From Achromobacter insuavis (lineage in GTDB: Bacteria; Pseudomonadota; Gammaproteobacteria; Burkholderiales; Burkholderiaceae_B): a stretch of 64,000 nucleotides of DNA. The translations under genes were made by a program, and so were the position numbers. Positions 45,106 through 49,634 of this stretch are shown here, in pieces (the stretch's first letter is position 1; each line of letters opens with the position of its first letter). The notes beneath the pieces were generated by a model, which was not told where the DNA came from, did not search any database, and worked only from the letters and a program-made list of their open reading frames with translations. The DNA lies in the NCBI RefSeq assembly GCF_902859645.1, contig NZ_CADIJR010000012.1, positions 49,291-113,290 on the forward strand, read 5' to 3'.

Positions 45106-46002
45106 TCAGGCGATCGGCGCCGGCGGTTCGCCGCCCTGCTGGGCGTCCCGCATCTCCATCAGCAGGCTGTGCAGCATCTCGGTAGACAGGCCGTGCAGCA
45201 CCAGCCGGTAGCCGGCGCGCAGCGTCGACATCGGCACCAGCGGATGGCTGTTGTTGACCAGAATCAGGTGCTGCGGCGCGCCCAGCAGCTTGGCCGCGTA
45301 GATGCCGATGGTCTCGTCCAGCTGCAGCGAGTTGGCCGCGCGCCAGAAGTCGTTGTCGGTCAGCATCAGCTGGTAGAGCGGCGTGAACAGTTCGATGGCG
45401 CTCTGCAGGTCGAGGAAATTCAGCCTGCCCTGCGGCATGTCCTCGAGCTTGAGACCCGGGTCGCGGATCATCGAGAAGTCGACGCGCTCGGGCGCATGCA
45501 TCTCCACGCCGGCGTCGCGCAGCGCCTGGTTCAGCCGGATCACGAAGTTGAACAGGTTCAGGTCGTGCTTGACGAACAGCTCGTCCTTGAGATCGTCGAT
45601 CTCCATCGGCTCGAGCGGCGTGGTGGCCACGCGCACCGGCGAATTGGCCGCGATGAACGCCAGGATCTGCGCGCCCAGGTGGAAATGCCGCAGGATCAGC
45701 CAGTTGGCCTCGGGCGACACGAAGCGCTTCAGGCCCCACGCCAGGATGCGGTGCAGCAGCCGCGAATGCGACCAGCGGCGCGGCAGGAAGGTCTTGATGA
45801 CCTGGATCAGGATGATGAAAGCGCGCGCCAGCGGCCGCAGGAACGGCAGCAGGTACTGGCGCGAGCCGCAGCTCGAATCGGTCAGCCAGGCCTTCTTGAC
45901 CTTGTCCGGCAGCGGCGTGCTGCGATCCAGGTACAGCGCCAGCCAGGGGCTCGGATCGGCGGGATCGTGCCCCTTGGCCAGGAATTCCGGTTCCTTGTTC
46001 AT
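45106..46002 (-). CDS. Conserved hypothetical protein of the ketosynthase operon (DUF6999-like)
   Basis: I do not recognise a characterised function. The 298-residue protein is soluble apart from one weakly hydrophobic stretch near residues 58-72, and is helical, with conserved segments LILRHFHLGAQILAFIAANSP, DELFVKHDLNLFNFVIRLNQAL and LILVNNSHPLVPMSTLRAGYRLVLHGLS. It overlaps the ketosynthase-diiron fusion gene by 4 bases (ATGA), so the two products are probably made in matched amounts. It may be a partner or an accessory factor in lipid handling. Confidence 0.65.
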   Translation of the reverse strand: MNKEPEFLAKGHDPADPSPWLALYLDRSTPLPDKVKKAWLTDSSCGSRQYLLPFLRPLARAFIILIQVIKTFLPRRWSHSRLLHRILAWGLKRFVSPEANWLILRHFHLGAQILAFIAANSPVRVATTPLEPMEIDDLKDELFVKHDLNLFNFVIRLNQALRDAGVEMHAPERVDFSMIRDPGLKLEDMPQGRLNFLDLQSAIELFTPLYQLMLTDNDFWRAANSLQLDETIGIYAAKLLGAPQHLILVNNSHPLVPMSTLRAGYRLVLHGLSTEMLHSLLMEMRDAQQGGEPPAPIA

Positions 46003-47930
46003 GCGGCGTCATCCTCCATCACGTGATGAAACTGCATCAGGTACAGCGCGGCCGTGCGGCGCGCGGTGTCGACGATGCGCTGCTCGGCGCGGCCGTCCTC
46101 ATCGCAGTCCAGCGCCAGTTCCACCGCCGTCAGCCAGCGCGCCAGGTGGTTCTCGTCGTTGTGGCCATGGTATTCCAGGAAGCGGAAGGCGTCCGGCGGC
46201 AGCTTCAGGCTGGCTTTGAGCAGCGGCAGCAGGGCCGGCACGATGCGCTGGCCGGTGCCCTCGATGATGTAGATGGCGCCCAGGAGGCCGATCGGGTCGC
46301 GCGTGGCGGCCAGGCTGTGCAGATAGGCGTTGAGCGCCTCGCCTCCGGGGTTGCGGCGCAGCGCGTCGATGCTGTCGATGGCGCCGCCGGCCGTGCGGTA
46401 GTCTTGGAACAGGATCTGGAAATCGTTCTGCTCCTCGCCGGCATGCATGTCGATCAGCGCGGCCAGCGGCTGGTACTGCTCGGTCAGCGAGGCCGCGCCT
46501 TCGCGCATCCACTTGCTGCCCTCGCGCACCTGCGGGATCCAGTTCTCCATCCAGTTCAGGTAGTCGGCGGTCTCGAAGCGGCGGTTGCGCAGGCGCCGCA
46601 CCACCGGCGTGCGCCAGACGCGCGAGCGGTAGTCGTGCCAGATCGCCGCCAGTTCGGTCAGCAGCTGGCCCAGGCCCTGCGGCGCCATGTCCGGATCGTG
46701 CGGCGGCGCGATGGCGTCGGCATCGGCGCTGTGCGCGTCCTCGCGCCCGGCCGCGGCTGGCGTGGCGCCCACGGCCACCGACGGCGCGGCCTCATGCGCC
46801 GCCTCGGCTTCCAGCAACATGTAGGCCGCCATGAAGCGGCCCGACTCGGGGATGTAGCAGAAGATCTGCTCGCCCGGCTTGATCTCGCGCGTTTCCAGGA
46901 ACTCGGCCAGCATGATCAGGATCGACGCCGCGCCGGTGTTGCCGCGCCAGGCCAGGTTGCTGAACCAGCGCTCGCGCGGGATCACCAGGCCGGCCTTCTC
47001 CATCAGGTCCTCGACCACCGGAATGAATTTCTCGGACGAGTAATGGCACAGGAAATGGTCGACCTGATCCGGATCCAGCCAGCCGTCGCGCACCAGCTTG
47101 GCGTACTCGTGGATGCCGATGTCGAACAGATGCGGCAGCAGGCGGATGTCCTGGCGCAGCGACAGCGCGCCATCGGCCTCGGCCTCGTTCCACGACGGAT
47201 AGTCCAGGTGGCCCTTCTGCCGGTCGGCCGACAGGCCCAACTGCATGCAGACCGGATAGTCGCCCGAGAACGAACGCTGGTGCACCCACTTCAGGCGCAG
47301 CCGCACGCCCTTGGAGGCGCCCGGCAGCGGCCGGCCGCCGCGTCCCAGCAGCAGCGCGCCAGCGCCGTCCGACAGCATCCAGCGCAGGAAATGCGCATCG
47401 AAGTCGGCGTCATAACCACGCGCGGCAAAGCGCGAGCGCTTGAACAGGCGCGACGGCAACTCGGCCGCCACCGCCAGCGCGCTGGCGTGGCCGCCCATCT
47501 CGACGCCCTGCGCAGCCACCTGGATCGCCGACACGCCCGCGGCGCAGATGCCGTGCACCGATAGCGTCTCCATCGGATGCGCGGCCAGCTCGCCCTGGAT
47601 CATGTTGGCAAAGCCCGGCATCAACGCATCGCCGCCCGACGAGCCGCTGGTCAGCAGCGACACGTCCGCCAGGTCGCCGTCATTGCGCCGCAGGCAATCG
47701 CGGATGGCGTTGGCGGCCAGCTGCGCGTTGGTGAAAACGGTGGAACCCTCGGCATCGATCGCGTAGTAACGCTGCTTGATGCCGTTCTCGGCCAGGATGC
47801 GGCTCTTGATGCGGCTGGACATGCGGTTCAGCGGCGCGATGTAGCTGTCCATGGCCTCGTTGGACACGGGTTCGCCCGGCATGAAATAGCCGGCGCTTTC
47901 CAGGTAGACACGATTGAACGCGATAGGCAT
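45999..47930 (-). CDS. Ketosynthase III fused to heme-oxygenase-like (putative diiron) domain
   Basis: The protein (643 aa) has two domains. Residues about 1-375 form a thiolase-fold ketosynthase of the KAS III/StlD-DarB kind. The active site is Cys129 (SVHGICAAG), His296 (FLCHYSSEKF) and Asn331 (AWRGNTGAAS). An Ala/Asp-rich linker (about 380-418) leads to residues 420-635, a helical TenA/heme-oxygenase-like domain with candidate metal ligands in HAGEEQND (496-503), IIEGTG (Glu557) and YHGHNDENH (588-595). Such domains include non-heme diiron oxygenases that cut or oxidise fatty acids. Sequence supports the two folds; the combined reaction is unknown. Confidence 0.75.
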   Translation of the reverse strand: MPIAFNRVYLESAGYFMPGEPVSNEAMDSYIAPLNRMSSRIKSRILAENGIKQRYYAIDAEGSTVFTNAQLAANAIRDCLRRNDGDLADVSLLTSGSSGGDALMPGFANMIQGELAAHPMETLSVHGICAAGVSAIQVAAQGVEMGGHASALAVAAELPSRLFKRSRFAARGYDADFDAHFLRWMLSDGAGALLLGRGGRPLPGASKGVRLRLKWVHQRSFSGDYPVCMQLGLSADRQKGHLDYPSWNEAEADGALSLRQDIRLLPHLFDIGIHEYAKLVRDGWLDPDQVDHFLCHYSSEKFIPVVEDLMEKAGLVIPRERWFSNLAWRGNTGAASILIMLAEFLETREIKPGEQIFCYIPESGRFMAAYMLLEAEAAHEAAPSVAVGATPAAAGREDAHSADADAIAPPHDPDMAPQGLGQLLTELAAIWHDYRSRVWRTPVVRRLRNRRFETADYLNWMENWIPQVREGSKWMREGAASLTEQYQPLAALIDMHAGEEQNDFQILFQDYRTAGGAIDSIDALRRNPGGEALNAYLHSLAATRDPIGLLGAIYIIEGTGQRIVPALLPLLKASLKLPPDAFRFLEYHGHNDENHLARWLTAVELALDCDEDGRAEQRIVDTARRTAALYLMQFHHVMEDDAA

Positions 47931-47965
47931 GGCGGGTCTCTAGTGGCAGGTATGGGGTTGCGGCG

Positions 47966-48874
47966 CTAGCGCACGTGTTCGGGCGCCATGCACGAGCGGC
48001 TGCGAAAGCGCGGCAGGAAGGTGCCCAGCACGAACACGCGGAACATGTACGGCGTCAGGCCGCCTTCGTTCAGCGCGGGCGTCACGCGGGCCCGGTAGTG
48101 GTCGCGGTGCAACCGGGTCAGTTCGGACCAGTGCGCGCGCGGACTCTCGTGATGCGCGGTGTGCAGGCCGATGTTGAACAGCAGCGGATTGACCAGCCCT
48201 TCGAAATTGCGGGCGTAGTTCAGGCCCGCGACGGCGCGCGGCCCGCCATCGGCGTGCGCGTGCTGCAGGTAGTTGGTGGCCAGCAGCCAGTGCAGGCCAT
48301 GCAGTTGCGGAATGATGACGAACACCAGCGCCTTGACCGGATTGATCGCCAGCAGGCCGCCCCACAGCCCCAGCCAGGCGCCGTACTGGCACAGGCAATA
48401 GCGCCAGGCGCCCGGCCAGTGGCGGCTCAGCCGCCCGAGCCAGGCGAAGAACAGCGGATACAGCACCCACACGGCCTGCGCCGGATGGATCAGGTAGCCC
48501 CACAGGTGATTGGTGTCGCCGCCGAAGCGATAGGTGCGCGCCACGTCGCGCGCGCCGTGCTTGAAGCGGTGATGGTTGGCCACGTGCGCCGGATAGAACA
48601 CGAAGGTGGGATGCCCCTGCAGCAGCGTGATCCAGAAATCGGTGGCGCGATTGGCCCAGCGGCCATGCCACATGCGGATGTGCGTGTGGTTGTGATGGAT
48701 CACGCCGATGCCCAGCGTCAGGAACAACATCAACGCATACAGCGGCCACCAGAAGCCGTGCAGCCACTGCCACGCCGCCAGGGCGGGCAGCGCGGCCAGG
48801 TAGGCCAGGCTCTGCCAATCGCGCCGGTTGCGCAGCGCGGGCAGCCGGCGCCTCTTGCTAAGCCCGTCCGCCAA
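47966..48874 (-). CDS. Membrane fatty acid desaturase family protein
   Basis: The integral membrane protein (302 aa) has the histidine boxes HHNHTH (60-65), HVANHH (about 97-102) and HTAHH (about 243-247), plus HYRA, and around four membrane segments. These boxes bind the diiron centre of acyl desaturases and related hydroxylases. It overlaps the sterol-desaturase-like gene by 17 bases and precedes the ketosynthase gene. The substrate is probably an acyl lipid. Whether it desaturates or hydroxylates is unknown. Confidence 0.82.
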   Translation of the reverse strand: MADGLSKRRRLPALRNRRDWQSLAYLAALPALAAWQWLHGFWWPLYALMLFLTLGIGVIHHNHTHIRMWHGRWANRATDFWITLLQGHPTFVFYPAHVANHHRFKHGARDVARTYRFGGDTNHLWGYLIHPAQAVWVLYPLFFAWLGRLSRHWPGAWRYCLCQYGAWLGLWGGLLAINPVKALVFVIIPQLHGLHWLLATNYLQHAHADGGPRAVAGLNYARNFEGLVNPLLFNIGLHTAHHESPRAHWSELTRLHRDHYRARVTPALNEGGLTPYMFRVFVLGTFLPRFRSRSCMAPEHVR

Positions 48875-49634
48875 TCGATTCTCGCTGCCGGAAAGCCTCC
48901 AGCTGGGACGTCGCCGCCTCGGCCTTCAGCCGGGTGCGGAACAGGCGGTCCATGAAGGTGAACTGGAAGCCGAAATTGCCGTTGTAGCAGGCGTGGTGCA
49001 GGTGATGCCGGCGGCTCGCGGCGAACCAGTGCGAATACGACACGTTGGGAAAAAAGTCGTAGTTGGCGTGGCCGATGCAGTTGAAGAACAGGCTGAACAG
49101 CGGCACCGACGCCAGCGACCAGAAGCTGAAATCATGCAGCACCATCGGCAGCATGATGACGTTGCCCAGCATCAGCGCTTCGATCGGATGGAAGCTGTAG
49201 GTCGAGAACGGCGTGGTCACCACCGAGCGGTGGTGCGGCAGGTGGAAACGGCGCAGCAGCTTGGTGTGCAGCAGCCGGTGGTTGATCCAGAAATGCACGT
49301 CGTTCCAGGCCACCAGGGCCAGGATCTCCAGCGTGATTTTCTGCCAGCTGGCATCCGGATCCAGGTGCGCCCAGCCCAGCTGCAGCAGGCCCCAGGGAAA
49401 GATCATGCCGGTGCCGAACAGCAGGATCGACACGCCCGACTGCGTGAACTCGCGGCGCAACTGGCCCGGCGCCAGCGGCCGCGGATCGAGCGGCCGGCCG
49501 ATGCCCAGCGCCGGCAGGATGCGCTGGGTCAGCAGCCAGGTGGCCGCGCCGAAAAGCAGGTAGATGCCGCCGAAGAACAGCAGGCCCGCCAGCATGACCT
49601 GCCAGGCGGACAACGCGACAAAAGCTTGGGCCAT
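48858..49634 (-). CDS. Sterol desaturase/fatty acid hydroxylase superfamily protein
   Basis: The membrane protein (258 aa) has the ERG3/FA-hydroxylase histidine motifs HFWINHRLLH, HLPHH and HHLHH, and four hydrophobic segments. It is the first gene of the operon. In bacteria, members hydroxylate acyl chains or carotenoids rather than sterols. Together with the desaturase and the ketosynthase fusion it implies successive oxidation of a lipid. The ATG at 49634 is the only reasonable start. Confidence 0.83.
   Translation of the reverse strand: MAQAFVALSAWQVMLAGLLFFGGIYLLFGAATWLLTQRILPALGIGRPLDPRPLAPGQLRREFTQSGVSILLFGTGMIFPWGLLQLGWAHLDPDASWQKITLEILALVAWNDVHFWINHRLLHTKLLRRFHLPHHRSVVTTPFSTYSFHPIEALMLGNVIMLPMVLHDFSFWSLASVPLFSLFFNCIGHANYDFFPNVSYSHWFAASRRHHLHHACYNGNFGFQFTFMDRLFRTRLKAEAATSQLEAFRQRESIGGRA

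Follow-up and report, generated by a model that had tools for sequence, protein, structure and literature searches.

A conserved unit of a StlD/DarB-related ketosynthase, a probable dimetal oxidase and DUF6999 in an Achromobacter operon

Introduction

The product of the ketosynthase DarB is given as 4-carboxy-2,5-dialkylcyclohexane-1,3-diones (PMC5515871), and in Azoarcus the gene darA lies next to darB, with DarA listed as a "DAR-aromatase" (PMC3949708). antiSMASH has a (dialkyl)resorcinol class (PMC4489286), and in Achromobacter mucicolens it marks a "resorcinol" region whose core gene is DarB, for which the account shows no product (PMC9045304). A second group of interest is the heme-oxygenase-like dimetal oxidases (HDOs), which include the fatty-acid decarboxylase UndA, the maker of a hydrocarbon (PMC13108848), and DtpC (PMC13232832). 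We compared with these systems a four-gene operon in a 64,000-nucleotide stretch of Achromobacter insuavis DNA (assembly GCF_902859645.1, contig NZ_CADIJR010000012.1, positions 49,291 to 113,290 of the forward strand), which we call the window and by whose numbering all positions of the operon are given.

The operon encodes a membrane hydroxylase (gene A), a membrane desaturase (gene B), a ketosynthase III fused to a heme-oxygenase-like oxidase domain (gene C) and a protein of the family DUF6999 (gene D). The ketosynthase, the oxidase and DUF6999 (together, the trio) very probably form a coherent biosynthetic core. The core is real and conserved, and judged from its sequences it varies the DarB/resorcinol scheme: its oxidase, probably a dimetal enzyme, is unusual, and one partner has no assigned function. 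An Achromobacter DarB region has been labelled "resorcinol", yet the window operon lacks the partner that one would expect for DarB and has a probable iron oxidase and DUF6999 instead. If the oxidase truly replaces that partner, an HDO reaction of a new type would follow, DUF6999 would gain a function, and Achromobacter, Bordetella, Sphingomonas, Paenibacillus, myxobacteria and Acidobacteria would share a class of lipid.

The ketosynthase, oxidase and DUF6999 as one unit

The core is encoded by genes C and D:

45999..47930, minus strand: gene C, ketosynthase III and heme-oxygenase-like fusion, 643 aa (Pfam ACP_syn_III_C 1.4e-9, Haem_oxygenas_2 3.3e-11)
46791..47930, minus strand: ketosynthase domain of gene C, about residues 1-375 (C129, H296, N331; PES loop 361-363)
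45999..46685, minus strand: oxidase (HDO) domain of gene C, about residues 416-640 (candidate ligands H496/E500/D503/E557/H588/D592/H595)
45106..46002, minus strand: gene D, DUF6999, 298 aa (Pfam PF22523 E 6.8e-133)

To measure linkage, 398 genomes of the phylum were scanned with profiles of the three components, and the three scans were taken as one draw with nine positives. DUF6999 was found in 9 of the 398 genomes. The oxidase-domain profile matched 86 genomes in two tiers, nine at E <1e-87 and 77 at 7e-28 or weaker, and the StlD/DarB model (E up to 1e-40) matched 21 places in 20 genomes, 12 of them over its cut-off (560-601 bits) and 9 under it (302-398 bits). The genomes with DUF6999, with the strong oxidase match and with the sub-cut-off ketosynthase were the identical nine.

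The arrangement was then read at 80 DUF6999 loci, the best 80 of 453 matches in named genomes when ranked against a Sphingomonas sequence. The ketosynthase was present at 77 of them (only in part at L108 and L120), and the remaining three end at contig ends, two showing DUF6999 alone and one lacking the ketosynthase. The ketosynthase and oxidase were fused at 51/80 loci, split into adjacent genes at 25/80, and at a single locus the ketosynthase was distant. The gap from oxidase to DUF6999 was at most 200 bases in 73 of 78 loci. The loci belong to Pseudomonadota (48), Bacillota (21, a probably mislabelled one included), Myxococcota (7), Acidobacteriota (3) and Bacteroidota (1), shares that are not representative given the ranking. 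The fused form was seen in all five phyla, and the split form in Alphaproteobacteria, one unclassified proteobacterial bin, a probably mislabelled "Bacillus" and one genome of the window's own class (G421). The contig titled "Bacillus sp. 2B10" (L070) is probably a mislabelled or mixed assembly; its ketosynthase and DUF6999 nest within Sphingomonadaceae.

Besides genes A and B, overlapping frames and lineage-specific neighbours, no further gene family with a fixed place was found in the 80 loci among open reading frames (ORFs) of at least 100 aa, compared at 25% identity and 50% coverage. A preliminary description of the operon, made from its sequence alone, had treated the four genes as one functional set. 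This did not hold, with gene A at only 19/80 loci and gene B at only 15/80: the functional unit is the ketosynthase, the oxidase and DUF6999, that is, genes C and D. Fifteen more loci bring the trio loci to 95, some of which end at contig ends; L046 and L055 lie on one contig, as do L049 and L119, so these are not 95 independent cases.

The ketosynthase domain

The closest PDB entry to the ketosynthase was StlD (5gk0, 8e-64), and the next ketosynthase III entry followed at 1e-8, which bears out the preliminary assignment to the StlD/DarB type. The catalytic Cys129-His296-Asn331, already described as complete, was present and conserved in all rows with those columns: C129 in 76/76 (in two of the 78 rows, both fragments, the N-terminal part is missing), H296 and N331 in 78/78. 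Trio members have the same triad and PES loop as 12/12 DarB-type enzymes, and StlD shares the loop too; in the FabH-like protein of the window genome, the loop differs. Glu157, considered as an StlD-specific cyclisation residue, was rejected as a diagnostic position; the genome's FabH-like protein has a Glu in the same column.

Phylogenetic trees were built from thinned sets of 69 ketosynthase rows (with a FabH outgroup), 68 ketosynthase rows (unrooted) and 56 DUF6999 rows. Between 24 and 27 loci were left out, mostly close copies and some partial sequences, and the ketosynthase trees consist of trio and DarB-type sequences, with FabH as the outgroup of one. Among named genomes, A. agilis has the nearest ketosynthase in these trees (95% identity); the A. 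dolens locus L125, which was left out of the trees, scored above it in the search. Compared by eye, the DUF6999 and ketosynthase trees agree for most genera, with one Acidobacteria row (L104) placed differently.

The same comparisons bear on a head-to-head condensation, of the kind of PpyS or OleA. The ketosynthase would then make a beta-ketoacid or pyrone, and the oxidase would cleave it to a ketone or hydrocarbon, close to the idea first put forward for this operon. Two-acyl condensation of such kind is described for PpyS and OleA (PMC4578411), and the hydrocarbon-making UndA is itself an HDO (PMC13108848). However, the PDB comparison puts StlD far ahead of any other ketosynthase III, and the PES loop is shared with the DarB-type enzymes. 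We regard head-to-head condensation as improbable. The closeness to StlD, greater by far than to other ketosynthase III entries, makes a cyclohexanedione or resorcinol lipid a likelier product than a hydrocarbon.

Absence of the presumed DarA

One conserved protein adjoins all 12 DarB-type genes and was found at none of the 95 trio loci, the DarB-type loci having been searched for it at E 1e-5 and the trio loci at a laxer 1e-2. The protein gave no Pfam match and, in one of the two copies scanned, only a sub-threshold NCBIfam flavodoxin match of 16.9 bits (cut-off 198); its relatives on plasmids are annotated "hypothetical protein". We take this neighbour to be DarA because darA adjoins darB in Azoarcus (PMC3949708).

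Gene C is the single match to the StlD/DarB model (E up to 1e-40) in the window genome. Since antiSMASH already labels an Achromobacter DarB region "resorcinol", the product class is partly anticipated. The earlier statement that no characterised pathway has this gene set is thus upheld in part: a literature search covering few subscription-journal papers, in their accessible parts, recognised no description of the set or its product, but the product class had already been predicted by antiSMASH (PMC9045304).

The oxidase domain

The second half of gene C has a heme-oxygenase fold by sequence, matching Pfam Haem_oxygenas_2 with 43.7 bits (cut-off 28.9) and PDB 3dde by profile at 5.3e-13. H496, E500, D503, E557, H588, D592 and H595 were each invariant in 79/79 rows. 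Five of the six positions of the canonical set of three His and three carboxylates are kept, and the sixth is D503 in every row. The canonical positions are those of UndA, CADD and SznF. In 11 distant relatives, from 11 of the 77 second-tier genomes, the columns of E500, E557, H588, D592 and H595 were all kept, whereas column 503 has His and column 496 Tyr; PDB 3dde has His in both of these columns.

The invariant H496, two helix turns from D503, might stand in for the sixth ligand. It is also His in 3dde and so is not unique to the trio oxidase, which slightly lowered our estimate for the most far-reaching reading, given below. We infer that the metal site is retained but altered and that the fused domain is a probable iron-dependent oxidase of the HDO kind. 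The preliminary description had given the domain a plausible diiron site; a full set of candidate ligands agrees with this, but the set is not canonical, with Asp for a ligand His throughout.

That substitution also raises a reading in which the domain does no iron chemistry and has a structural or substrate-holding role, with gene D or the membrane enzymes carrying out the oxidation; metal-independent functions do exist among heme-oxygenase folds (PMC13108848). A dead site would be expected to drift, however, whereas seven ligand-type residues do not vary here, and five of the six canonical ligands are among them. We therefore consider an inactive oxidase domain very improbable.

DUF6999

Gene D is a full-length member of DUF6999 (442 bits against a cut-off of 27, profile positions 1-275 of 275). 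It had been described as a protein of unknown function, which stands, although the family name had been missed. H84, N100, R105, H106, H146, D147, D198, E204, D229, E230, H253, H270 and E275 were present in 81/81 rows, and the very divergent DUF6999 of G421 still has R105, H106, H146, D147, D198, D229, H270 and E275. The protein looks like an enzyme and has one hydrophobic stretch.

Comparison of DUF6999 with the PDB, by sequence and by profile, gave nothing credible, and a Pfam scan of 29 members found no other family beyond weak stray matches. A distant kinship between DUF6999 and the oxidase domain was rejected (hhalign probability 0.1%). The family is not named in the accessible parts of the literature searched. 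Among 72,556 plasmid records the sole DUF6999 match was a relative of 31.8% identity, annotated hypothetical, on an 801-kb Pseudoalteromonas plasmid (NZ_CP045419.1:702860-703669).

Proposed pathway and alternatives

Our best explanation of the whole is that the enzymes of the operon build a lipid out of two acyl chains, with the fused oxidase acting in the place of DarA. We offer it tentatively, at somewhat less than an even chance. In the first step, the ketosynthase half of gene C would, like StlD and DarB, condense a beta-ketoacyl and an enoyl thioester; the resulting 2,5-dialkylcyclohexane-1,3-dione could still bear a 4-carboxylate. Sequence kinship makes this, alone among the steps, well supported, and a DarB-like first product is likely.

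In the second step, the fused oxidase would work on this product in DarA's place, a replacement for which we see the case as evenly balanced. The simplest chemistry would be an oxidative decarboxylation of the UndA kind, with loss of the 4-carboxylate and a beta-hydrogen to give a tautomer of 2,5-dialkylresorcinol; since the carboxylate of the DarB product sits next to a carbon that bears hydrogen, such a reaction would give the resorcinol in one step. Replacement by this particular reaction is possible but somewhat doubtful. In the third step, as a guess, DUF6999 may make a further obligatory change or be a partner in the second step. In the fourth, hydroxylase A and desaturase B would tailor the alkyl chains or the ring where they are present.

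Several observations weigh against this proposal. The window ketosynthase scores 328.6 bits against NCBIfam NF005293 (StlD/DarB), under the curated cut-off of 450. In the unrooted tree of 56 trio and 12 DarB ketosynthases, one branch parts the two groups with a support of 100/100, and on this evidence the trio ketosynthase is placed as a separate branch of the StlD/DarB family. Its substrates may therefore differ from those of StlD and DarB. In a quick tree with the FabH outgroup the DarB group had a support of 85 and the trio side only 32, so together with the unrooted split the trio may be a stem from which DarB arose and not a clade.

The absence of DarA likewise depends on a neighbour that we presume to be darA from its position, and that the family libraries do not name. 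In the genome G432 (locus L158) the trio coexists with a DarB-type ketosynthase and the customary neighbour of that enzyme, which makes identical products improbable. Because Asp503 replaces the canonical His, the oxidase may follow a chemistry other than that of UndA, and the constant presence of DUF6999 is left unexplained by a plain replacement of DarA.

The last three of these points favour a reading in which a cyclohexanedione still arises from the ketosynthase but is then hydroxylated, desaturated or cleaved by the oxidase instead of being aromatised, and DUF6999 completes a non-resorcinol product, for example a quinone, a furanone or a ring-opened diketone lipid. The ligand set is non-canonical in all 79 rows, DUF6999 is always there, and G432 keeps the DarB-type pair alongside the trio. 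However, no particular product is directly indicated, and replacement is the simplest reading of the missing DarA. We give a non-aromatising oxidase a real but clearly limited chance. In its most far-reaching form, the core found in at least five phyla would combine a DarB-related ketosynthase, an altered-ligand dimetal oxidase and DUF6999 as a new enzyme class. Its product would then be a lipid distinct from the dialkylresorcinols and from every compound described so far, formed by an iron-dependent oxidation of the ring that has no known precedent among HDOs; this is possible, though less likely than not.

Genes A and B, neighbouring genes and locus layout

The remaining genes of the operon are:

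48858..49634, minus strand: gene A, membrane FA_hydroxylase (sterol-desaturase type), accessory, 258 aa (Pfam PF04116 E 3.5e-21)
47966..48874, minus strand: gene B, membrane FA_desaturase, accessory, 302 aa, TTG start (Pfam PF00487 E 1.3e-22)

The ORF list gave exactly the four packed minus-strand genes first described, with overlaps of 17 bases between A and B and of 4 bases between C and D and a gap of 35 bases between B and C. Pfam likewise confirmed A and B as a hydroxylase and a desaturase with membrane His boxes. In gene A, H114, H119, H123, H131, H134, H135, H189, H210, H213 and H214 were invariant in 19/19 rows (window plus 18 loci), and hydrophobic stretches are present; the His clusters of gene B were invariant in 16/16 rows (window plus 15 loci). 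Neither protein matched anything in the PDB up to E 1. Both genes were found in 12 of the 13 betaproteobacterial loci among the 80, and were absent from most Sphingomonas and Paenibacillus versions of the trio examined. Across the wider family, A and B are optional add-ons that are common in Betaproteobacteria.

Ratios of nonsynonymous to synonymous substitution rates (dN/dS) for the four genes were 0.06-0.33, measured against nine relatives (seven genus members and two others). The order A-B-C-D was found again in five of six loci from other genera of the same taxonomic order (L040-L044), and the sixth (L045) gave no gene A match. The flanking genes of the window had no match in these same loci. 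The low dN/dS and the recurring order argue that the four-gene arrangement is not due to chance. DUF6999 was present in 37/37 searched genomes of the window's genus. A promoter and terminator scan of the locus gave signals not above shuffled sequence.

Genes for lipid metabolism adjoin the trio in some lineages. An LplT/Aas-like fusion of MFS, acyltransferase and AMP-binding domains adjoins it in five Sphingomonadales loci (L055 = L046, L056, L058, L059, L074; e.g. L055:10883-14284), and Sneathiella (L115) gave a shorter, partial match to this fusion. In G372 the gene for DUF6999 shares 4 bases with one for a prokaryotic diacylglycerol kinase (L045:9171-9557). These neighbours fit a membrane lipid, one of the two products first suggested for the operon.

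Other neighbours were seen singly or in one group. In Corallococcus terminator (L093:7626-10975) an FA_desaturase lies between the fusion and DUF6999, and a bacterial globin and a ferredoxin-FAD-NAD reductase follow downstream of DUF6999, where they are a possible electron supply. An Acidobacteria bin (L102:9075-9962) has an FA_desaturase, unmatched by the gene B profile, between the fusion and DUF6999, and a Paenibacillus bin (L100:3609-4322) has an FA_hydroxylase on the opposite strand, convergent with the trio. A TetR-like regulator was found in ten alphaproteobacterial loci. In G421 (L047:11941-12507) the gene just before the ketosynthase encodes a membrane-like protein of 188 aa that contains His and matches no Pfam family.

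Comparison with known systems

The "resorcinol" region of A. mucicolens can be likened to the window operon by its DarB core gene only; the accessible part of its account makes no mention of the oxidase, of DUF6999 or of an absent DarA (PMC9045304). With HDOs such as UndA, SznF, CADD and DtpC, the trio oxidase has in common the fold, as judged from sequence, and five of the six ligand positions of the canonical set. It differs in its Asp at the sixth position in 79/79 rows and in being joined to a ketosynthase, which is not said of the HDOs in the accessible part of the review (PMC13108848). The DarB/DarA dialkylresorcinol and StlD stilbene pathways are like the trio in their ketosynthase family, triad and PES loop, and a two-acyl substrate logic is expected for it as well. 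In contrast to both, the trio ketosynthase scores under the family cut-off and branches separately, and where the presumed DarA would adjoin it, the oxidase and DUF6999 are found instead.

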